A DNA stretch of 64,000 nucleotides, taken from positions 1 through 64,000 of the forward strand of contig LKNA01000001.1 of NCBI GenBank assembly GCA_001564065.1. Direction: 5' to 3'. The notes under the pieces were generated by a model. It was given only the letters and a program-made list of their open reading frames with translations. It had not been told where the DNA came from and did no database searches. This DNA comes from Chitinophagaceae bacterium T5-Br10_B2g13 (GTDB lineage Bacteria; Bacteroidota; Rhodothermia; Balneolales; Balneolaceae). Position 1 is the stretch's first letter; each line of letters starts with the position of its first letter. The position numbers were made by a program, and so were the translations under genes. Shown piece after piece: positions 3,303 to 19,884 of the stretch.

Positions 3303-6300
3303 TTAAACCTTTTCTTTCTCCCCGACCATTATCAATTCCACTCGGTGAGTTTTACCGTCATTCAAAATTTTAATCTTCGCCATAATCTTATCCTGAGAGA
3401 ATTCTTCTCCATCCACTTGACCTGCCAGTTTACCGGACTCTAAACCATCCCGGTTTTCAATTTTAATAATGTACTCCGTTCCAATGTCATCAGGTTTGTA
3501 ACGTATTGTGTACGATTTCCAGGATTTCGAAATAGCCGGTTTCAGTATAATCTGTTTTCCCTCTATTCTGAACCCTAATACAGATTCCAGCATCACCCTG
3601 TACATCCATCCGCCTGATCCGGTGTACCAGGTCCAACCGCCCATACCGGTCAGGGGTGGTTCGCCATATACATCAGCTGCAACCACATAAGGTTCCACTT
3701 TGTACTGAAGGCATTTGTCAAATGTGGAAGCATGATTAATCGGGTTCACCATGTTAAGGTAGTTTACCGCCTTTTCACCTCTGCCGAGCTCTGCCATGGC
3801 TTTGATCAGCCAAAGTGCTGCGTGAGTATATTGACCGCCATTTTCCCGTACCCCGGGAATGTAACCTTTGATGTAGCCCGGATTTTTCTCGGTTTTGTCA
3901 AAAGGCGGGGTCAACAGTCGAATAATTCCTTCCGGCTCCGATACCAGGTGATTTTCGGCTGACTGCAGTGCCTTTTGAGCGCGCTCATCCGTTGCAACGC
4001 CAGAAATAACCGCCCACGCCTGCGAAATAGCATCAATCTTACACTCCTCATTCTGCACTGATCCAAGCGGAGTACCGTCATCATAATACGCCCTCAGGTA
4101 CCACTCACCATCCCAGCCTGCATCATTCAACCTTTTTTTAAGTTCAGAGGCTGTTTTCTTATACCTCTCAGCACGGTTTGTATCATCCATTTTTTTACAG
4201 ATTGGAATAAAACGATCCAGCGTGATATAGATGAAGAATCCCAGCCAAACGCTTTCACCTCTGCCCTCTTCACCCACGCGATTCATCCCGTCATTCCAGT
4301 CTCCGGCACCTATTAAAGGAAGTCCGTGTTGCCCAAACTGCAGTGAAATATCGATCGCTTTACAGCAGTGCTCATAAAGAGATCCGGTTTTTTCTGTTAC
4401 CTGTGGTGTGAGATACACTTCATGTTCATCATCCTCCAGGGAACGGGCAGTTATGTAAGAAATCTCTTCATTCAGAATATCACGGTCGCCCGTAACACGT
4501 ATGTAGTGATCTGTTACGTATGGCAGCCAGAGACGGTCATCTGTAATTTTAGACCGGATCCCTCTGCCCGTTGGCGGATGCCACCAGTGTAGCACATCAC
4601 CCTCTTCAAACTGTTTGGATGCATGTAGTAAAATCTGCGTTCTGGTTAGAGCAGGATCCACATAAAGCAGTGCCATGGAGTCCTGGAGCTGATCCCGAAA
4701 TCCAAATGCACCTCCGGCCTGGTAGTATGCCGTTCGTCCCCACATTCTGCTGGACAAATTTTGATAGGTCAGCCAGCCATTCACCATCAAATCTATCGAC
4801 TTATCCGGAGTTTCAACCTGTACTCTTCCGATCTTGTCTGACCAGAAATCTATCACAGAACTTAGTGCCGACTCCGCCTTTTCAACATCCCTGTATTCAG
4901 AAAGAACTTTTTTCGCCTCCACTTCACTTTTTGCTTCTCCGTCGAAAAAGTAGATGACTCTTTTTTCTCCCTTTTCCAGATTTAAGTCAAACTGAAGTGC
5001 CGCGCAGGGATCTGAACCTACATCGATCCGGTTATCGAGGTTCTTATTTTTGCCAACTGCTATCGGATTATTCAGAGATCGATTCCGGCCAATAAAATTC
5101 TCTCTTTCAGTGGTGTAGAAAACTTCATCTTCATAATCAGGCATATAAACTCCTGAGTATGCCACCCTTCCGGCAAACTCGTTGTTATAGAAATTTCTCG
5201 AAAACAGGGATTGCATTTCATTCATAAAATGGGAGGTGACATATCTCGATGAGCTCTTTCGGCTCACTCCCAAAACCGTATCCAGATACCTGAAAAGTGA
5301 AAGTGAGCACGACTTCCTGTCAACATTCTCAATCGTCAAACGGCTGATTTTTACTGAGTCGCTTAAGGGCACAAAATGTGTAAGCTCTTGCTTCAGGCCT
5401 GCGCTTTTGTGATGAAATGTGGTATGTCCGAACCCGTGAACTGCTTCATAGTTGCCATTTCCGGGAACGGGGCCGGGTGCCGGAGACCAGAAAATTTTAC
5501 GTTCATTATCCCGTATAAAGAATGCTTCAGAATGCGTATCTAAAACCGGATCATTCGACCAGGTCGTGATTTTATTCTCCCGGCTGTTTTCACTCCAGGT
5601 ATATCCTGCCCCGCGCTCGGAAACGAGTGTACCGAAATCCGGGTTCGAAAGTATGTTTACCCAGGGTGCCGGTGGAAAACTGTGCCGGTTGGTTTCCGGG
5701 TCAATGTTTATCTGAATCCGGTACTCTTTTCCATCTTCACTGAATCCTCCAAAGCCGTTGAAAAAACGCAAATTCTCTTCAGGTTTCCGTTCATCAATCT
5801 CATCGTTGAACTCCACGGGTACCGGTTTATAATCATTTTCTACTCCCTCATTCATCCACGATTGCGTATCCACTCCCTGAAGAATCAGATCTTCTCTGGC
5901 CGGAAGTTTATGCCTGAACTGTGCATGCGCTACTGTTTGAACCAACATTAAATCCTCAGGCGGTATTTTATCGGTTCGATGGACGAATATTCCACCGTAC
6001 TTGTTAATCAACCCTCTTTCGGATGATGATTCAATGAGCTGATAAATTGCTTCCTGAACTTCATCAGCGTAACTCGGAGCATGATCGTTTAGAATAAGAA
6101 GTTCACTTTGCAACCCCCGCTGTCTCCAGAAAGCGTGAGCCTTCAGCATCTTTTTGAGGTGTTTAATCTGATCTGTCTGATCTATTTTGAAGACCACCAA
6201 AGGTAAATCCCCCGAGATTCCATAAGCCCAGAGGTCCTGCTGCTTCTTGCGATTTTGCATCAAAATCGAAGAGTCAGCTCTGAATTTTGAATTTGAGTAG

Positions 6301-9300
6301 ATGAGATGAGAAGCTAATTTTTGGAAATAATGAGCCTCCCTTGAATTAATTCCAATATGATTCAGCTCCACAGAACTGTAAACATCAGCCAGGTCAAAAG
6401 CTCTGAAAACAGATAGAGAATTATCATACATATCGGCCATATGAATAGCCTCCTGTTCGGATTTGGCATATCCCAACCCAAATGCGAAAATAACTTTTTC
6501 ACCCGGACCCAGTTTAATTTTCTTTCGAAGGCTCATGATCGGATCGGATACATTTCCCAGCGAGCAATCCAGTCTTGAATCTGAATCCATTGCCTTCGGA
6601 TGGCTTAGTGTCCTGCCTCTCCCGATAAACTTTGATCGCTCCGTTTCATATTGAAGCGGATCCGTTAAATTATCCGAATCATCCCCTGCAAAGGTATGAA
6701 CCATCCACATTGGAGATTCTTTATCACTTCGGGGTCTGCGTTTGGCAAGCAGAGCATGATGTTCAGCCAGGTATTCTGTTTGAATAAACAGCTTGGAAAA
6801 TGCAGGATGTGCATTGTGATCCTTACTCTGATTCAATACAACTTCTGCATAGCTGGTTACCTCAAGTTCCCTCTCTTTTTCTGAGTAGTTGGTCAATGTA
6901 ATTTTTCGAAGCTCGATTGGGTAGTCCGGCGATACACAAACTTCCGTTGTTGTCTCAATCCACTCATCCACTCTTGAGGTCACCATTTTACCGTTGTGGA
7001 ACCAGCTGTCGTATCGATCAGGCTTCCGCTTTACGGGCTGATGACCGGCCGACCAGAATTTACCGCTCTTCAAATCTTTGATATAGACAAATACCCCCAG
7101 TGGGTCAACGGTTGGATCAGGTTCCCACCCGTTTAGAGTTACCCCATTACACTGAGAGCTGCCCGTACCGGTGTGGGTCAGAAGAGTCGAGAAATTACCG
7201 TTTGAGAGGATATGAAGTCGAGGCGGGCTCGTATCCAACTCGCCCATTCCGGCATGCTCCACAATTTTCTGGACTGCTTCCTGTTCGCCCGGCTCCAGCT
7301 CCACTTCAATTGGATGAGGCTCTTTAATGGGCACTCCCCTTGGAACCCGCTCTTGCAAAATTAACTCACAGCCCTGGATTCTCGGATCTGCATGAAAGTA
7401 TTCCTGAATCAGGTTGTCGTTCATAAAGTTTTCCAGGGCAATCAATCCCATCCCATGATGGTGTACCATATACGACTTAACCACTTTGTGAGATTCCCCA
7501 CTGTTCAGCCGGGACGGTGTAAAGTCAAGCGCATCATAAAAACCGTGCAGCCCAAACCCACCCTTTCTCTCAATTCTCTTAAGGTTTTCTATGGATGAAA
7601 ACGGATCAACGGACAGCGACAACAGCGAGGCATACGGAGCCACTACATACTCCTCCGCAAGGCCACGCTTCAGACCCAGCCCTGGAGCTCCAAACGCCCG
7701 ATACTGATAGTGCATATCGATATTTAAATTGTAGTAGGCGCTTTCAGAAAACCCCCAGGGTTTCTTATTCTTTTTGCCATATTCCTGCTGCCATTTCACA
7801 ACATTCTCATAGGTGTGATCCATCAGCGTTTCGGGTACGCTTTTCATGAATAAAAGCGGCATCAGATATTCAAACATGGTACCTCCCCAGGAGAGCAAAA
7901 TCTCATTACGGCTCAAACTTGTCAGTCGTCTGCTCAATCTGAACCAGTGCTCTACCGGGATGTCGCCTTTGGCAATCGCTATGTAGGATGCGATCCTGGC
8001 TTCACTGGCAAGCAGGTCGTACGTACTCTTATCGAGTTGTGCACGATCAACATTGTACCCGATAGTGAACAGCCCTCTTTTCTTCAAATAGAGAAACGTA
8101 AAATCCATCTCTTCGATCAGCTTTTCACAAATCGATATAATATTATCTGTTTGTTTCTTCCACCGATTCAGGAGGAGGATACATTGAGATTTGTTCTCCC
8201 GATTCTGGGCATACTCATCCAGCATCTTAGGCGAATAGTCTGACAGGTCCCGGTCCGAATCCATACTCAAACATTTCCATTCAGCAATTGATTTTTCCAA
8301 CTGATGGAGCGGACTCTCAACCCAGTAGCGTAAATCCTGCATGTATTGATCATCGTAATGACTTCCCAATGGCAGCAAGTCGACAGCACTTAAGCGAGCG
8401 GCATCCTCTTTAATTTCACGAAGCAGATCGAGTCCGGACTTTTCACTCTGTTTAATTTTATCGAGCATAATCTTTGTGACCAATTGTATTTCCCTAAAGC
8501 AAGGATTAGCCTGTGGACAATCATTCTCAAGCTCATCAAAAATATTCTTGACGGTACGAACCGTGTCTTTTAAGCCCTGCCAGAATTTTGAGTTTAAAGC
8601 CTGTTCTTCCGAAGCTGCTCTGATACCCTCTTTTGCCACAATCAATCCTGCTGCTAAATTTCCGGAATCAACCGTAGATACATACCTCGGGTTTAATACA
8701 TCCCCCATTGTTGTTTGATACCAATTGAAAAAATGCCCCTTATAGCGCTCCAGTTTGTTTATAGAGAGCAGGGTATTCTCCATTCTATCTAACAGCTCAC
8801 TGTAAGTAATGTATCCACGGTTATATGCAACCAGGTTTGCAGTCAAGGCCAGACCAATATTCGTGGGAGACGTTCTGTCTACCGGAGATAGTGGTGGATC
8901 TACCTGGAAATTATCCGGCGGGAGCCAGGAGTTTTTGTCTGTAACCATTCGTTCAAAAAAGAACCAGGTTCGCCTGCTATACTCTCTGAGTAGTAAATAA
9001 TCTGACTTATCGACTTTGGCTTGGGTAGATTTAGTCGGTTGACTTATATACCAAACGTAAAACGGAGCACCGGACCAAAGCACAAAAAATGGAGCCAGTG
9101 TCCACAAGTAACCGGGATTCGTGTTGAGTGCACCCACAAGTATCCACACACCCAAAATGACAGGAAGCAGCATCATTCTAACATAAGCAGAGAGTGAGTT
9201 CGGGCTATTGGACTCTGTTTGAGATGCCGTTGTCCACTCCAGTAAATTTCTCTTCGAAATACTGAGGCGGTAAAGTGTTCTGAAAACCGCATCCAGTTGC

Positions 9301-12005
9301 ACCAAAGCCTGGTGCGGTAAAACAATAACAGTCGATAAAGCCTGAACCGTATTAATTTTAAGATTGTCTTGAACTTTTTCCCAATAAAGCTTCCAGCGAA
9401 CTCTTGCCGGCCGATTAACAATATCAGTTGAGAGACTCACATAAATCGGGAATGCAAGTATTCCGAATGCAAAGAGCGTCCAAAGCCAGGCAGGCCCCGG
9501 CAGAAAAAACCAACCGGACACAAAAAAGAGTGTCAGAAAAAATGGATTTAGTGATCTTCGTAAATTGTCAAAAATCTTCCACCTTGAAAGGATATTGATT
9601 CGGTTTCTCTCTTTCCCGTTTTGGGTGGGTACTCTTTTCAAAAGCCAGGCGGCAATTTGCCAGTCGCCGCGCGTCCAGCGATGACTTCTTTTGCTATAGC
9701 TTGCATATGTAAGCGGATAGTCGTCATACAATTCAATATCTGAAGCAAGCCCGGTTCTCAAATATGTACTTTCAATTAAATCGTGGGAAAGAATGCGGTT
9801 TTCCGGAAATCGATCATTTAAGACTTCATGGAAAGCTCTCACGTCATAAATACCCTTTCCTGTAAAAACGGCTTCTCCGGCCAGATCCTGGTAAATATCA
9901 GATACAGCCGTTGAATAGGGATCCAAACCTACGTTTCCTGAAAATATTCTGGAAAACCATGTTTTCCGGGCCGAAGACGGAGGAATGGAAATTCTGGGTT
10001 GAATAATGGCATATCCCGACGTGATTCTCTTTTTCTCCCGGTTCAAAAATGCGCGGTTCAGCGGATGAGATATGGTACTGACTAACTTGATGGCACTATC
10101 GGGCGGTAACTTTGTATCCGAATCTAATGTTATGACATAGTTTACATTTTCCCGCTGAATCGATTCAGTGAAATCACCTGCCATAAACGAGTACGTTGTA
10201 TCTGTATCCGGATCACAAAGAAGCTGGTTAAACTCTTCCAGTTTGCCCCTTTTTCGCTCCCAACCCATCCATACTCCTTCTGCTTCGTTCCAGAGGCGAT
10301 CTCTGTGCAGTACAAAAAATTTATCCCCATAAGCTGAAGAGTACTTCTCATTCAACTCCAAAATAGCTTTTTTGGCTTCATCCAGAATCTCCTGGTCTTT
10401 CGGTTCTGTTTTATTAACCGAATCTTTAAAATCTGAAAGCAGAGCAAACTGCAGTCCCGGGTGCGGGTTTGCCAAAGATCTTATTTCAAGCCGATTTATT
10501 TGATCTCTCACATCTTCGGCTGAAGAAAACATTGTAGGTACCACAACCATTGTTCTGGATGAATCGGGAATAGTGTCCCTAAAATCCATTTTATTCAACT
10601 TTCGGGGCGGAAGCAGAAATACAAAAAATCGATTAACGGCCGAAACGGACAGATCAAGCGCCGGGAAAAATGAAACCAATACTACCGAAGTAGCAATGAA
10701 CAGAGATTCACTAATAGCGTCCGTTACAAACCATAAAATCACCATCAGTACTATAGTATGCAGGATAATGGTGGCTATATACCAAAAAGGCCGGTTTTCG
10801 AGTCCTTTCTGCAATCTTTCGCGATATGGCATGCGATACCCCAGAATGGAAGCAAACTTTTTGTATCCCTCGCCTACCAGATAGTACCCGATATGTTCTT
10901 TTGTTGCAGACCGATTATAAAGTGAGTCCGAACCTTCATCACTCTCCTCATTCAAACGGCTTTGATCTTCTGCCAAGATCAATACCTGTTCTGCAACATT
11001 CGTTTCAGACTTTTCTGAGTATCGGCTTAAACGCTCAACAACACGGCGATAACGATCCCGTGTTTCAAAATCCATTTTGGAATAGGCCCCATAGGGATCA
11101 AGTCGAAGGATCTGATCTACAATAGAACACTCTTCAACAAAATCAGACCAATCTGTTTCCGAAGATTCACGAAGTGTAATAACAGCATTTTGGATACTGA
11201 CCTGGAGACGGGACTGCCGCTGTGCATCAGTGCGCTTGGCTTCATCAGCCGTAACATCCAGCTGTTTAAATCTGTAATTGAACCATCTCTTCTGTTCTTC
11301 CTGCAGAAGGCCGCTCTGCTGCAACTGGTTATAAAGTTCAATCAGTACGGGAACAATATCATCCGTATTCCTATACTTTTCTATCCAATCAGACATGGAG
11401 TTAATCAGCTTTCCGGGTTCGTGAATATCACTTTCACTCTTTTTACTGATCAGATCATTGACTTCTCTCCAAATCTTTTTCCTGTCTAAAATTCGGGAAG
11501 CTTTTTCTGAAAGGTTCTGAACCAGAATTAACCGGATCATAATAGGTATAGCCCATATCTCCCCCAACTTCAGAGTTTCATGCTGCTGATACTGCTGCAC
11601 ATAATGAATTAATACCCCCTCATCCACAAGGTTGTCGGTATGTAAGAGGTAGTTTAGTATCAGCTCATAAACTCTGGGCAAACCCTCATGTTCGCCGGTG
11701 GAAAGTGCGGGAAGTCGTTTTTGAAATTCTCGTGGAAAATCCTCTTCAACCTGAACAATCTGCTCCTGAATGATGTAAAAATTGTCGATTAACCACTCTG
11801 CAGCTGTCGAAAGGTCCCGGTTCTGTTTGGCCAGACCGGACAACACCCGATAGGCATCTACCAATACCTTTTTGGAGTCTTCAATAATGGGTTTAACCGG
11901 ACGCATTCTTTTCGAGGAGTCTGATACGGAATGTATCTCTGCCAGATTTGCTGCACTCTCTTTTAAATAGCTAATATTATAGGATATCTTGGATTCCTGA
12001 TCCAT
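3303..12005 (-). CDS. Cyclic beta-1,2-glucan synthase family (NdvB/ChvB-like; GT plus glycoamylase-like plus GH94 modules)
   Basis: ORF 2900 aa; GT motifs (NYVITLDSDTKLP, RSHRWTRGDWQ), multiple TM segments, glycoamylase-like (GGTMFEYLMPLLF), GH94 signature GAGDWNDGMNRVG. Confidence 0.93.
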   Translation of the reverse strand: MDQESKISYNISYLKESAANLAEIHSVSDSSKRMRPVKPIIEDSKKVLVDAYRVLSGLAKQNRDLSTAAEWLIDNFYIIQEQIVQVEEDFPREFQKRLPALSTGEHEGLPRVYELILNYLLHTDNLVDEGVLIHYVQQYQQHETLKLGEIWAIPIMIRLILVQNLSEKASRILDRKKIWREVNDLISKKSESDIHEPGKLINSMSDWIEKYRNTDDIVPVLIELYNQLQQSGLLQEEQKRWFNYRFKQLDVTADEAKRTDAQRQSRLQVSIQNAVITLRESSETDWSDFVEECSIVDQILRLDPYGAYSKMDFETRDRYRRVVERLSRYSEKSETNVAEQVLILAEDQSRLNEESDEGSDSLYNRSATKEHIGYYLVGEGYKKFASILGYRMPYRERLQKGLENRPFWYIATIILHTIVLMVILWFVTDAISESLFIATSVVLVSFFPALDLSVSAVNRFFVFLLPPRKLNKMDFRDTIPDSSRTMVVVPTMFSSAEDVRDQINRLEIRSLANPHPGLQFALLSDFKDSVNKTEPKDQEILDEAKKAILELNEKYSSAYGDKFFVLHRDRLWNEAEGVWMGWERKRGKLEEFNQLLCDPDTDTTYSFMAGDFTESIQRENVNYVITLDSDTKLPPDSAIKLVSTISHPLNRAFLNREKKRITSGYAIIQPRISIPPSSARKTWFSRIFSGNVGLDPYSTAVSDIYQDLAGEAVFTGKGIYDVRAFHEVLNDRFPENRILSHDLIESTYLRTGLASDIELYDDYPLTYASYSKRSHRWTRGDWQIAAWLLKRVPTQNGKERNRINILSRWKIFDNLRRSLNPFFLTLFFVSGWFFLPGPAWLWTLFAFGILAFPIYVSLSTDIVNRPARVRWKLYWEKVQDNLKINTVQALSTVIVLPHQALVQLDAVFRTLYRLSISKRNLLEWTTASQTESNSPNSLSAYVRMMLLPVILGVWILVGALNTNPGYLWTLAPFFVLWSGAPFYVWYISQPTKSTQAKVDKSDYLLLREYSRRTWFFFERMVTDKNSWLPPDNFQVDPPLSPVDRTSPTNIGLALTANLVAYNRGYITYSELLDRMENTLLSINKLERYKGHFFNWYQTTMGDVLNPRYVSTVDSGNLAAGLIVAKEGIRAASEEQALNSKFWQGLKDTVRTVKNIFDELENDCPQANPCFREIQLVTKIMLDKIKQSEKSGLDLLREIKEDAARLSAVDLLPLGSHYDDQYMQDLRYWVESPLHQLEKSIAEWKCLSMDSDRDLSDYSPKMLDEYAQNRENKSQCILLLNRWKKQTDNIISICEKLIEEMDFTFLYLKKRGLFTIGYNVDRAQLDKSTYDLLASEARIASYIAIAKGDIPVEHWFRLSRRLTSLSRNEILLSWGGTMFEYLMPLLFMKSVPETLMDHTYENVVKWQQEYGKKNKKPWGFSESAYYNLNIDMHYQYRAFGAPGLGLKRGLAEEYVVAPYASLLSLSVDPFSSIENLKRIERKGGFGLHGFYDALDFTPSRLNSGESHKVVKSYMVHHHGMGLIALENFMNDNLIQEYFHADPRIQGCELILQERVPRGVPIKEPHPIEVELEPGEQEAVQKIVEHAGMGELDTSPPRLHILSNGNFSTLLTHTGTGSSQCNGVTLNGWEPDPTVDPLGVFVYIKDLKSGKFWSAGHQPVKRKPDRYDSWFHNGKMVTSRVDEWIETTTEVCVSPDYPIELRKITLTNYSEKERELEVTSYAEVVLNQSKDHNAHPAFSKLFIQTEYLAEHHALLAKRRPRSDKESPMWMVHTFAGDDSDNLTDPLQYETERSKFIGRGRTLSHPKAMDSDSRLDCSLGNVSDPIMSLRKKIKLGPGEKVIFAFGLGYAKSEQEAIHMADMYDNSLSVFRAFDLADVYSSVELNHIGINSREAHYFQKLASHLIYSNSKFRADSSILMQNRKKQQDLWAYGISGDLPLVVFKIDQTDQIKHLKKMLKAHAFWRQRGLQSELLILNDHAPSYADEVQEAIYQLIESSSERGLINKYGGIFVHRTDKIPPEDLMLVQTVAHAQFRHKLPAREDLILQGVDTQSWMNEGVENDYKPVPVEFNDEIDERKPEENLRFFNGFGGFSEDGKEYRIQINIDPETNRHSFPPAPWVNILSNPDFGTLVSERGAGYTWSENSRENKITTWSNDPVLDTHSEAFFIRDNERKIFWSPAPGPVPGNGNYEAVHGFGHTTFHHKSAGLKQELTHFVPLSDSVKISRLTIENVDRKSCSLSLFRYLDTVLGVSRKSSSRYVTSHFMNEMQSLFSRNFYNNEFAGRVAYSGVYMPDYEDEVFYTTERENFIGRNRSLNNPIAVGKNKNLDNRIDVGSDPCAALQFDLNLEKGEKRVIYFFDGEAKSEVEAKKVLSEYRDVEKAESALSSVIDFWSDKIGRVQVETPDKSIDLMVNGWLTYQNLSSRMWGRTAYYQAGGAFGFRDQLQDSMALLYVDPALTRTQILLHASKQFEEGDVLHWWHPPTGRGIRSKITDDRLWLPYVTDHYIRVTGDRDILNEEISYITARSLEDDEHEVYLTPQVTEKTGSLYEHCCKAIDISLQFGQHGLPLIGAGDWNDGMNRVGEEGRGESVWLGFFIYITLDRFIPICKKMDDTNRAERYKKTASELKKRLNDAGWDGEWYLRAYYDDGTPLGSVQNEECKIDAISQAWAVISGVATDERAQKALQSAENHLVSEPEGIIRLLTPPFDKTEKNPGYIKGYIPGVRENGGQYTHAALWLIKAMAELGRGEKAVNYLNMVNPINHASTFDKCLQYKVEPYVVAADVYGEPPLTGMGGWTWYTGSGGWMYRVMLESVLGFRIEGKQIILKPAISKSWKSYTIRYKPDDIGTEYIIKIENRDGLESGKLAGQVDGEEFSQDKIMAKIKILNDGKTHRVELIMVGEKEKV

Positions 12006-12147
12006 ACCACTCCCTCAGATCGTAATTCAGAATTGAGCTTCCCTTTCAAGTAATATCCACTTCTTTTCTTACAGACAGATAGGGAATAGTTGATTCTGTT
12101 TGAAGGGATTTCTCAACCTGAGTGTAAGATTTTCACAAAACCTGAAT

Positions 12148-14039: not shown

Positions 14040-14461
14040 GATTTATTATCACAAATGGAAGTTCATCACATTTTCAGCCGATCCATACAGCAGATAACCC
14101 TCTCTTTTGTAGTATAAGTTTATACTCTTTTGTACTGTTTTTCCTTGGTGGTAGTCCGGCGGGTACCTATTCCAACTACAATACTTCGTTAAACCTAATC
14201 AGGCATGGTATAACCGGTTTTACAGATAGGCATTCGTTTTTTCTCCTGTTAGTTCAAAGGGAAAATCATACATAATAAGACGTCTAAATCAGGTTTTGGG
14301 AAACCATTATTTGATAGTCTGTTTATCAACCTCCAAATAAGGTGACTGTACCCTGTGGTGATAATACTACAAGCAATTAACAGCAAATCTTACACGGCGT
14401 TATCACCTAAGTGTTTATACTACTATTGAGTTCTTTGAGCAAATGAGAGTGACTAGATTTA

Positions 14462-14650
14462 GGGCACAGTTTAATTCGTTACTACGGTAACAAGTTGAAC
14501 ATATCAGGAAATAGTCCGCTGATAAATCAATGTATCTTCAACAAAAGGAGTGCATGATTGTGCCCCGGTCTGAATTTGTGGTTAATGTTGAGCAAGCAAG
14601 TGACCCGAAAACAGCCAGAGAGAAAACAAGAGAGGTTCGGTAAAGAAACT
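14462..14650 (+). ncRNA. RNA element A, 5' structured module (unidentified class)
   Basis: Closing helix GGGCACA(14462-14468)/TGTGCCC(14559-14565); hairpin GTTAC-TACG-GTAAC (14478-14491); hairpin ATCAG-GAAATAGTCCG-CTGAT (14503-14523); CGGTC/GACCCG helix downstream. Homologous to 16294-16469. Confidence 0.65.
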
Positions 14651-14751
14651 CGAAGCCAGCAGTTAGGGGTGCCCTGGATCCAACAGGACTGAGAAAAACC
14701 CTCTGAACTTGAATCCCGATCATACGGGGCGTAAGGAAATTGTTGGCTTCG
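14651..14751 (+). ncRNA. TPP (Thi-box) riboswitch-like aptamer, element A
   Basis: P1 CGAAGCCAGCA/TGTTGGCTTCG; AGGGGTG...AACCCT (P2); CCTG/CAGG (P3); ACTGAGA junction; AACTTGAA...CCCG-ATCATA-CGGG...GCGTAAGGAAA (P4/P5). Same topology as the TPP aptamer. Confidence 0.8.
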
Positions 14752-14772
14752 ATATCTAATTAAGAGAGAGTA

Positions 14773-14809
14773 GCCCGGCAATCAATAGTCCTGATTGCCG
14801 GGCTTTTTT
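14773..14809 (+). terminator. Rho-independent terminator 21 nt after TPP-like aptamer A
   Basis: GCCCGGCAATCA-atagtcc-TGATTGCCGGGC followed by TTTTTT. Confidence 0.88.
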
Positions 14810-14906
14810 GTTCCAGGGTAGAACTTTATGAATGGAATAGTACGATACTCATGACTTAAAGTTCATCCCATATGCTGGAATAAATCGTATCAATTCAGTA
14901 TGCGAA

Positions 14907-15844: not shown

Positions 15845-16096
15845 ATGAGACCGTACGAAAGAAGAATAAAATTAGTCCTGGACGTACCGAAGAAAACGGG
15901 CGCTTATCATAAGTTAATGGAGCAATGGGAGAATGAAGGTGGAGCAATTAAAGTCAATCAAAGCAGTGAAATAATCCCGGAAGCAAATATACCATTTCGA
16001 GAAGGCGAAGCATTCCAGGTTGTGAGGGGATCCATCGATTTCGAGGAAGAAGGAGTCTACTACATTGTTGATATCATGAAAGTAGATATCGAGTAA
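15845..16096 (+). CDS. Small protein of unknown function (83 aa)
   Basis: ATG preceded by GGAGAG-type purine-rich sequence; compact acidic ORF. Confidence 0.6.
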   Translation: MRPYERRIKLVLDVPKKTGAYHKLMEQWENEGGAIKVNQSSEIIPEANIPFREGEAFQVVRGSIDFEEEGVYYIVDIMKVDIE

Positions 16097-16293
16097 TAGC
16101 CACCATTCAATAATCCATTAAAAGAGTAATTAACCGAACTCGGGCTGGAAATAAAACAGAAAGTCTTATTCTTCGGGTGGCTTTCACTGTGATTCAAGAA
16201 AATACTACAACTTGATTTTCTAAAGAACTACAAGGTTTTTAATAACTGTTTTTATACTGCAGTAGAAGTTATTGACATACTGTAAAAAATTAA

Positions 16294-16469
16294 GAGCACA
16301 GAGTCATTCTTATGCTACGGCTGAGAGTTATTCAGACCAGAAAAATTATCCGCTGGCTCTTTTTAAATCCTTCAAACGATTCGAAAAGTGTGCTCCGGTT
16401 AACCATTTTCCAATTCCTGAAAATTGGTTGTAAACGGTGATTTATTAAGCCGATTACAAAAAATATTGT
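16294..16469 (+). ncRNA. RNA element B, 5' structured module (homolog of element A)
   Basis: Closing helix GAGCACA(16294-16300)/TGTGCTC(16389-16395); CTACGG at 16315-16320; hairpin CCAG-AAAAATTATCCG-CTGG (16337-16356); CCGG helix start at 16395. Aligns to 14462-14650. Confidence 0.65.
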
Positions 16470-16565
16470 CGGAGTCTTGGCGGGAGTGTCTTGATTCGTT
16501 CAAGTCTGAGATACATTCTTATAACTTGAAGCAGTTAATACTGACGAAAGGAGACTGAGACTCCG
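16470..16565 (+). ncRNA. TPP (Thi-box) riboswitch-like aptamer, element B
   Basis: P1 CGGAGTCT/AGACTCCG; GAGTGT...ACATTC (P2); CTTGA-TTCGT-TCAAG (P3); TCTGAGAT junction; AACTTGAA-GCAGT-TAAT-ACTGACGAAAGG (P4/P5). Confidence 0.82.
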
Positions 16566-16584
16566 ATCAATTTCAATCAAAAAG

Positions 16585-16628
16585 AATAACCCCGTTGTGA
16601 TTCAATTCGCAACGGGGTTATTTATTAT
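16585..16628 (+). terminator. Terminator 19 nt after TPP-like aptamer B (may be bidirectional with hsp20)
   Basis: AATAACCCCGTTG...CAACGGGGTTATT stem followed by TATTATTA. Confidence 0.8.
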
Positions 16629-16711
16629 TATGTAAGTCTGCTTTACTTAAAAAGTCATCGGATGACATCCAGCCTTCCGATGACTTATCATAAACTTTCA
16701 GAAATGATCTG

Positions 16712-17158: not shown

Positions 17159-17382
17159 TTCGTTACCTCACAAATTTATGTTTCAATCCCTTGGGTTCAT
17201 CGATTGAACCCGTCTTTAGTTTATAGTATAAAGCAAGGGCATAAATTCAATCATGGCATTATTGAAGAGCAGTGTAAGAATTTGTAGAAGAGTTAATTAT
17301 GTGAATTTCTTACACGTCAGAACTATTTGTAAACGAACATCTGTAGATATGTTTTTTTTATAAAAATTGCTCTGAAAAGCTG

Positions 17383-18048
17383 TTATAGCTTATGCTCGCT
17401 TTCTACCCATTTTACCGCATGGAATATCATTTCTGTAGAGTTTTTAAAATCCATCTTCTCCTTGATGCGAGACCGGTATGTTTCCACAGTTTTAGATGCA
17501 AGATGAAGCTGCTCGGCAATTTCACCGCTGCTCTTGCCACGACCAATTAATTCAAACACTTCAAGTTCCCGATCACTTAAAATATCAATCGATGAAACTG
17601 ATCCTTCTTTTTTCCCATGCATGGCATTCATCAGCAGTTTCTCGTTCAACGAGTCACTCACATAGATTCCGCCATTTAGAATTTTCCGTACAGCTTTCAC
17701 CAGCTTTTCACTCGGCTCAAACTTCATAATGTACCCCTTTGCCCCGGCTCTAAGCGCTCTCTCCCCATAAAGAGACTCTTCGTGGCGGGAAACAACCAGG
17801 ATCTTCATGTCGGGATCCTGAAAAATAATATTCTTAACCAGCTCTATCCCATTCATTCCGGGAAGTGACACATCCACCAGCAGCAGATCCAGTTTATCTT
17901 TATCCAAAATTTCCAGTACATCCTCAGCCTTTTCACACTGATAAGCCACTTCCAGATCCGGTTCCATTTCCAGCGTACTGGCAAGTCCTTTTCTCATCAT
18001 AGGATGATCGTCAACAATTAAAACTCTCTTCTTGAATGGATTATTCAT
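17383..18048 (-). CDS. NarL/LuxR-family response regulator
   Basis: ORF 221 aa; VLIVDDHPMMRKGL, LLLVDVSLPGMNGIEL, LSDRELEVFELIGRGKSSGEIAEQLHLASKTVETYRSRIKEKM. Confidence 0.95.
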   Translation of the reverse strand: MNNPFKKRVLIVDDHPMMRKGLASTLEMEPDLEVAYQCEKAEDVLEILDKDKLDLLLVDVSLPGMNGIELVKNIIFQDPDMKILVVSRHEESLYGERALRAGAKGYIMKFEPSEKLVKAVRKILNGGIYVSDSLNEKLLMNAMHGKKEGSVSSIDILSDRELEVFELIGRGKSSGEIAEQLHLASKTVETYRSRIKEKMDFKNSTEMIFHAVKWVESEHKL

Positions 18049-19459: not shown

Positions 19460-19598
19460 CCCTCAATCTAATCTTTGAACCAAGTTACTTCATTTATCTC
19501 TCACTTTATTATCCCTTCTCCTTAAAAAACAGACCACTTTACTATACCAGCATACTCAAAAATTTTACAAAATGAATCATAAAAAACCCTTCATTGGA

Positions 19599-19615
19599 GT
19601 AAGGAATTTCCCTAC
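19599..19615. promoter_or_regulatory. Candidate inverted-repeat operator between PAS kinase and flavodoxin genes
   Basis: GTAAGGAATTTCCCTAC; related sequences at 3174-3190, 15709-15724, 17272-17315 and 30344-30360. Confidence 0.5.
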
Positions 19616-19884
19616 AAATGGAATAGGCGCTAATTTCAAAAGGTTGTAAACGCAATCCGTATTAAATTTCTGAAAAAGACACTAACACCATTCATAATCA
19701 ATGTTATATGAGTCTATTGCAACGCAGAGAGTTACAGTTTAAAGTTTGAGTGATACCCCTGAATTTCAGGTATTTCATTACATCGTAGTGAGGAGTTTCA
19801 CCAACACTATATCGTGATCATGCTGATACTTCATGAACTCACTTATCGATATATTTAACAATATCCATTAAATAAGGGGGAATT

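Follow-up and report, generated by a model that had tools for sequence, protein, structure and literature searches.

A pseudoknotted RNA module of Balneolaceae, found alone or joined to a TPP aptamer, predicted to belong to a free-standing noncoding RNA

The locus and the parts of elements A and B

The window analysed in this study, a stretch of 64,000 nucleotides, contains two composite elements of the same plan, A and B (Table 1). A large glycan-enzyme gene lies upstream of them (3303-12005, minus strand), beside stress genes; its product, of 2900 aa, has GH94, putative glucoamylase and glycosyltransferase domains and resembles a cyclic beta-glucan synthase. Behind element A lie two minus-strand genes, and the next plus-strand ORF (15845-16096) lies about 1 kb past its terminator. 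This ORF encodes an 83-aa protein with no Pfam match, which is conserved beside composites at three other loci (L044, L113, L118). No clear plus-strand gene is present behind B until 19885. The neighbourhood also includes genes for a universal stress protein, a dodecin, a LuxR-type response regulator (17383-18048) and a PAS histidine kinase. Further sites of the GTAGGG..CCCTACA type occur in the window at 12101-12140 (upstream of the glycan-enzyme gene), 17273-17314 (upstream of Hsp20) and 19598-19616 (between a histidine kinase gene and a flavodoxin gene).

Table 1. Coordinates of the parts of elements A and B in the window
Feature	Position	Strand	Remarks
Element A, composite	14461-14812	+	module, linker, TPP aptamer, terminator
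Upstream site of A, TGTGGTGATAATACTACA (GTAGGGAAAACCCTACA type)	14354-14371	+	PWM score 12.7; putative regulator
-10-like hexamer of A, TATACT	14416-14421	+	read from sequence; putative start site
P1 closing helix, 5' strand GGGCACA	14462-14468	+	pairs with 14559-14565; both-side changes in 6 of 7 pairs; 95.9% paired in 83 copies
P2 hairpin	14469-14500	+	cap C(UACG)G, UACG at 14483-14486; both-side changes in every P2 pair
P3 hairpin	14503-14523	+	stem ATCAG/CTGAT, loop GAAATAGTCCG; 97.0% paired; both-side changes in 4 of 4 modelled pairs
Pseudoknot 5' strand CCG	14516-14518	+	end of P3 loop; pairs with 14566-14568; 99.6% of cells paired
P4 hairpin	14526-14558	+	fills remainder of module; 83-84% paired; both-side changes in all modelled pairs
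P1 closing helix, 3' strand TGTGCCC	14559-14565	+	covariation data as for the 5' strand
Pseudoknot 3' strand CGG	14566-14568	+	continuous with P1 3' strand, directly 3' of closing helix
Linker, module to aptamer	14569-14649	+	length and sequence differ among homologues
TPP riboswitch aptamer of A	14650-14754	+	15-nt P1 arms 14650-14664 / 14738-14752 (inverted repeat)
Intrinsic terminator of A	14772-14810	+	13-bp stem, then T run; strong
Element B, composite	16292-16631	+	same plan: module, TPP aptamer, terminator-like hairpin
Upstream site of B, ATTCAAGAAAATACTACA	16192-16209	+	same type as A; PWM score 17.8
-10-like hexamer of B, TATACT	16253-16258	+	read from sequence
5' module of B	16294-16398	+	P1 16294-16300/16389-16395; pseudoknot 16350-16352/16396-16398; 81.8 bits with model R1, A and B themselves being part of the module model alignments
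TPP riboswitch aptamer of B	16472-16569	+	RF00059 47.3 bits, E 6e-8
Terminator-like hairpin of B	16584-16631	+	17-bp stem, weak T tract ATTATTATT

Both elements are strongly structured, with RNAfold z-scores against dinucleotide shuffles of -5.4 for the whole of A and -6.4 for the whole of B. A coding function was considered and rejected: the ORFs of the element are short and overlapping (30-84 aa), and its alignment contains compensatory changes and indels. No tRNA or tmRNA gene was detected in the window by ARAGORN. A common TTTATACT is found at the -10-like region of A, B and the L044 composite. On balance, although by a small degree, we favour the view that A and B are both genes for free-standing noncoding RNAs, each about 350-390 nt long.

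The back half of A is predicted to be a sensor of TPP (vitamin B1), on the strength of its match to RF00059 and its core motifs. The match covers 14655-14754 with 53.4 bits (E 1.1e-9), which is 0.9 bits below the curated gathering cut-off of 54.3, and the aptamer is therefore silent in a default scan. Some homologous composites score above the cut-off (L100, 64.2 bits; G001:C304:1586, 54.9 bits; G032:C4:1534146, 54.4 bits), and a canonical TPP riboswitch is present elsewhere on the window's contig (C98:105417, 68.5 bits). A AGAGAGAG tract lies between aptamer and terminator in A (14762-14770) and its relatives, and also 5' of the module in another clade (leaders of L146, L148 and L162); it is possibly a single-stranded interaction site.

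Structure and covariation of the 5' module

The module of A extends from 14462 to 14568 and is the front half of the predicted noncoding RNA. An earlier note on this DNA had proposed that GGGCACA and TGTGCCC close the domain, and the two strands were found with exactly 90 nt between them. The UACG-capped hairpin proposed there, GTTAC-TACG-GTAAC, lies at 14478-14491, and its loop hairpin, ATCAG-GAAATAGTCCG-CTGAT, corresponds to P3. The compensatory differences it had pointed out between A and B, a closing-helix pair changing from G-C to A-U and a P3-stem pair from U-A to C-G, were also recovered by comparison with the counterparts in B (16294-16398). Its span of 14462-14607 holds the helices but runs too far, as the true end is position 14568, the last base of a pseudoknot strand 3 nt past P1, and 14569-14607 is linker. 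The AGUU that it had regarded as conserved after CUACGG proved to be a coincidence of A and B, since the P2 3' strand is variable at this point in an alignment of 11 sequences; CUACGG itself is kept in most module copies.

Comparative analysis of 83 copies (alignment A5) revealed a structure of 33 pairs, 31 of which show changes on both sides. The structure is 88.2% paired compared with 67.1% in shuffled alignments, and its covariation score is 0.621 compared with 0.218, an excess to which the kinship of the sequences and an alignment fitted to the nested part of the structure can both contribute, so that most weight is given to the types of compensatory pairs and to the controls with slid partners. 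When the partner columns were slid by one to three positions, pairing fell to 32-46%. These covariation data show that the structure does not arise by chance. The test suggested in the earlier note, a search for homologues that break P1 or P3 without compensation, was run on this set and brought no refutation, both helices being paired at the levels listed in Table 1.

The P3 loop consists of an A-rich stretch followed by an invariant C, and the CCG at its end is nearly invariant among the copies. This CCG pairs with the CGG behind P1 to form a pseudoknot, which was spotted by eye and is absent from the model that built the alignment. Its pairing was 100% in 52 copies and 99.6% in 83 copies. 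Compensatory changes occur at its G-C (to U-A, A-U and U-G) and C-G (to U-A) pairs, and the two strands change together in the variants CCU/AGG (L120, L121, L123), CCU/GGG (L122) and CUG/CAG (L056). The 5' domain as reconstructed by covariation is thus shown to consist of four helices around a junction, with a pseudoknot between the P3 loop and the 3' strand that extends the closing helix. P1 and the pseudoknot are predicted to form a quasi-continuous helix of 10 bp through their common 3' strand, with the A-rich portion of the P3 loop running beside this helix.

Rfam 15 models gave nothing significant for the 5' module of A, of B or of a stand-alone homologue (L094), in agreement with the earlier view that it matches no known class. 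The covariation and Rfam results identify the module, at the level of sequence comparison, as a family of pseudoknotted RNAs in Balneolaceae that had not been catalogued before.

Distribution, two forms and their upstream regions

Homologues were searched with a covariance model of the module (R1) and its refinements (R2, R3) over the order, the class and the phylum. The searches levelled off at about 86 copies, which are spread over 51 genomes and all belong to Balneolaceae, the family of the window itself; an exact-pattern search likewise matched seven records, all of them Balneolaceae metagenome-assembled genomes. A match outside the family (G261, model R2, E 0.006) is weak, was not recovered on re-search of the locus and was treated as chance. 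Among 88 good genomes of the order, 40 have the module, and this patchy occurrence indicates that it is accessory. A phage or plasmid origin was not supported, as no match was found in the phage and plasmid collections (blastn) or in IMG/VR (two exact patterns).

Sorting of 83 copies by their 3' context gave 33 copies with a TPP aptamer (composite), 47 with a near-immediate U-tract (stand-alone, a count that takes in some aptamer-less copies of composite type, namely L112, L114, L117 and L105) and three with neither. The simple terminator script mislabels a few copies by picking the wrong T run (L047, L123), so its totals are approximate. Composites are laid out as module, linker, TPP aptamer and usually terminator. 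A tree of the module, built on few columns and with many weak forks, separates the two forms except for the aptamer-less copies of composite type. Several genomes contain both forms together, and the number of copies per genome, tandem ones included, reaches five in G012, three in G036 and four in G021. The module is retained in some composite-type copies in which the aptamer is lost or degraded (L112, L116). Taking these copies together with the 47 that have no aptamer, our analysis indicates that the module is the core of the RNA family.

A scan of 20 loci for a further metabolite aptamer behind module copies found one case only, a cobalamin riboswitch of 113 bits (L108:3689-3888, minus strand) about 140 nt behind a stand-alone copy. 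It is taken as a separate element, since the module copy has its own U-tract and the case is the sole one in the scan. The possibility of a general switch through an alternative hairpin before the stand-alone U-tract, GUAC-UCCG-GUAC, was rejected because this hairpin is limited to the TGTACTCCGGTAC subgroup.

The upstream regions differ between composite and stand-alone copies. Upstream sites and promoters are predictions read from the sequence. Stand-alone copies have tandem repeats spaced by 11 bp, TGTGGATAAC..TGTGGAAAAG..TGTGGGAAAA, then TTGAC-N17-CTAATTA immediately 5' of P1. A perfect TGTGGATAA, the sequence of the DnaA box, occurs upstream of 33 of 45 stand-alone copies and of none of 32 composites, the background being 0.006 per 110 nt. 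The triple-repeat pattern was found 20 times in 14 genomes, each time 5' of a module copy and only of stand-alone ones. At individual loci (for example L155, L096 and L139) three DnaA-box-like repeats (TGTGGATAAC TTTGTGGAAAAG TTGTGGGAAAA), spaced by 11 bp, stand at about -90 to -45 before a sigma-70-type promoter. Stand-alone copies would thus use a dedicated promoter with tandem DnaA-box-like repeats.

Sites of the GTAGGGAAAACCCTACA type are present about 100 nt upstream of all 38 composite-type copies with enough sequence, a count that is partly circular since these same composites served to train the site model. An independent test of the model is provided by the neighbouring genes of composite loci, where it found 14 sites compared with 0.85 (sd 1.0) for column-permuted models; no such site was found upstream of neighbouring genes in stand-alone loci. 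The site-bearing neighbours in composite loci include homologues of DksA/TraR-type proteins, Hsp20 and flavodoxin. A -35-like TTGAC stands 5' of 22 of 33 composites, and a -35/-10 arrangement like that of the stand-alone copies was rejected for composites, as only two of 32 match it. We infer that the composites belong to a stress regulon run by a LuxR-type response regulator.

Analysis of the aptamers revealed that CUGAGA, the pyrimidine sensor, is invariant in all 32 aligned composite aptamers and that the three-way-junction helices P2 and P3, and also P5, covary. Of 33 composites, 26 have kept their core motifs, and the pyrophosphate-sensor arm (P4/P5, with its junction GA and CG) is present by motif in A, in B and in the same proportion of composites. 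The aptamers at L148:4178-4280, L150:4176-4275 and L162:4149-4251 keep CUGAGA and have lost the pyrophosphate-sensor junction, which possibly reflects an altered ligand or decay. Together with the degraded aptamer of L116, this loss suggests that TPP sensing is dispensable in some lineages. Aptamer P1 has a median of 11 pairs, whereas the canonical TPP riboswitches found in relatives have a median of six (p = 3e-9). At least nine copies have a T run immediately behind this over-long P1, which would then itself be the terminator. These features differ from those of an expression platform, which has to open.

Proposed role, alternatives and known systems

The anatomy and conservation of the RNA are well supported by the comparative sequence data, and its role was assessed from the genes that lie behind it. 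The next gene is in opposite orientation in 52 of the 79 copies with one in range. A same-strand gene is downstream in 27 copies, in a few of them within 150 nt, and individual copies may thus act in cis. By their sequence, A and B are predicted to be discrete RNAs of the kind known from trans-acting riboswitches, with an aptamer and no controlled gene downstream. The arrangement of a cis TPP riboswitch, a downstream gene controlled through an expression platform that shares P1, is seen in neither, and the terminator of A is separate from aptamer P1 and does not overlap it.

The elements might nevertheless be ordinary cis TPP riboswitches, or tandem riboswitches, with an odd 5' extension that control a downstream gene, and the classical succession of TPP aptamer and terminator in the 3' half agrees with this, as do same-strand genes 30-150 nt behind the RNA in L099, L048 and L141. 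We consider this quite improbable given that no plus-strand gene follows the terminator of A or B for about 1 kb or more, that the next gene is opposite in 20 of 32 composites with one in range, that no thiamin gene was seen among the annotated neighbours, that P1 is about twice the canonical length with no overlap between it and the terminator in A, and that the module recurs without any aptamer. It is unlikely, although less so, that the 5' module is a second ligand domain, that is, an orphan riboswitch in which P1, pseudoknot and U-tract make a terminator, so that stand-alone copies would attenuate and composites would integrate two ligands. In favour of this, the junction is compact and pseudoknotted and has a conserved A-rich loop, the U-tract follows the P1-pseudoknot helix almost directly in stand-alone copies, and an aptamer embedded in a terminator has a published precedent in the HMP-PP riboswitch (PMC6478431). 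The next gene is opposite in 31 of the 45 stand-alone copies with one in range, however, so that there is usually nothing to attenuate, and no downstream gene family common to these copies stands out.

The aptamer could also be merely a recycled stable 3' end, serving as terminator or as a cap against exonucleases, for which TPP binding is no longer relevant. The long P1, its use as terminator stem in several lineages and the degraded binding core of L116, L148, L150 and L162 would fit, whereas the invariance of CUGAGA and the core motifs kept in divergent copies with covarying helices indicate selection on ligand binding, and the proposal appears rather doubtful to us. That the copies are a mobile or selfish repeat, or a structure formed at the DNA level in place of a functional RNA, is hardly credible: multiple and tandem copies per genome would fit such repeats, but G-U pairs occur among the compensatory changes, the two forms differ in their upstream architecture, locus positions are conserved between relatives, and the searches of phage and plasmid collections and, with two exact patterns, of IMG/VR gave no match.

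The reading to which we give slightly better than even chances is that A and B represent a structured RNA that acts in trans and is fitted with a TPP sensor in its stress-regulon version. Since there is no gene behind the sensor, it is probably the RNA itself that the sensor regulates. The effector would be the 5' domain, with a protein or an RNA as its partner in trans; stand-alone copies would supply it from the promoter with DnaA-box-like repeats, and composite copies as part of the stress regulon. As the aptamer lies 3' of the effector, TPP cannot stop effector synthesis, and its simplest role would be at the 3' end, in stability or in the final fold. TPP occupancy of the aptamer may therefore tune how much RNA persists or is active, most likely by clamping the aptamer and the long P1 and so shielding the 3' end or fixing the final fold. 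We suggest only tentatively that one trans-acting effector reads both replication state, through the replication- or growth-linked DnaA-box form, and vitamin-B1 status, through the TPP fusion of the stress regulon.

A riboswitch is nearly always interpreted as a switch that acts in cis on the gene behind it. The occurrence of one RNA domain in about 33 fused and 47 unfused copies points to a metabolite aptamer repeatedly kept on a free-standing RNA, and the places in the tree where the aptamer was lost or degraded make the role of a metabolite sensor on a gene-less RNA directly testable. The 5' domain, as a new and well-covarying pseudoknotted family, is fit for structure determination, and the promoter with its DnaA-box-like repeats suggests that replication and a noncoding RNA may be connected.

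Compared with known systems, A and B share with TPP riboswitches (RF00059) the three-way junction, CUGAGA, the P4/P5 sensor arm and covariance-model scores that are significant, although below the gathering cut-off. Unlike in these, the aptamer is at the 3' end of a predicted free-standing RNA, with an unrelated structured domain 5' and no gene behind; composite aptamers further differ in their long P1 and in a P4 re-paired as CUU/AAG. Searches of open-access papers, at the level of titles, abstracts and chosen passages, did not turn up any TPP aptamer described in a free-standing RNA. The known trans-acting riboswitch RNAs, of the EutX/Rli55 and SreA types, have SAM or adenosylcobalamin aptamers, and in the cobalamin cases the aptamer is 5' of the regulator-binding part. 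Trans-acting riboswitches are described as rare in a review (PMC7266159, citing Loh 2009, DebRoy 2014 and Mellin 2014). Like these, A and B have a metabolite aptamer in an RNA whose anatomy, here judged from sequence, points to a distal partner, but they are set apart by their TPP ligand class, by an aptamer placed 3' of the putative effector and by a new effector fold. In the HMP-PP (thiS) riboswitch the aptamer is embedded in a terminator (PMC6478431); similarly, several homologues of A and B have the aptamer P1 stem directly 5' of a U tract, so that aptamer and terminator are one structure. The HMP-PP riboswitch belongs to another aptamer class and controls thiamin genes in cis.
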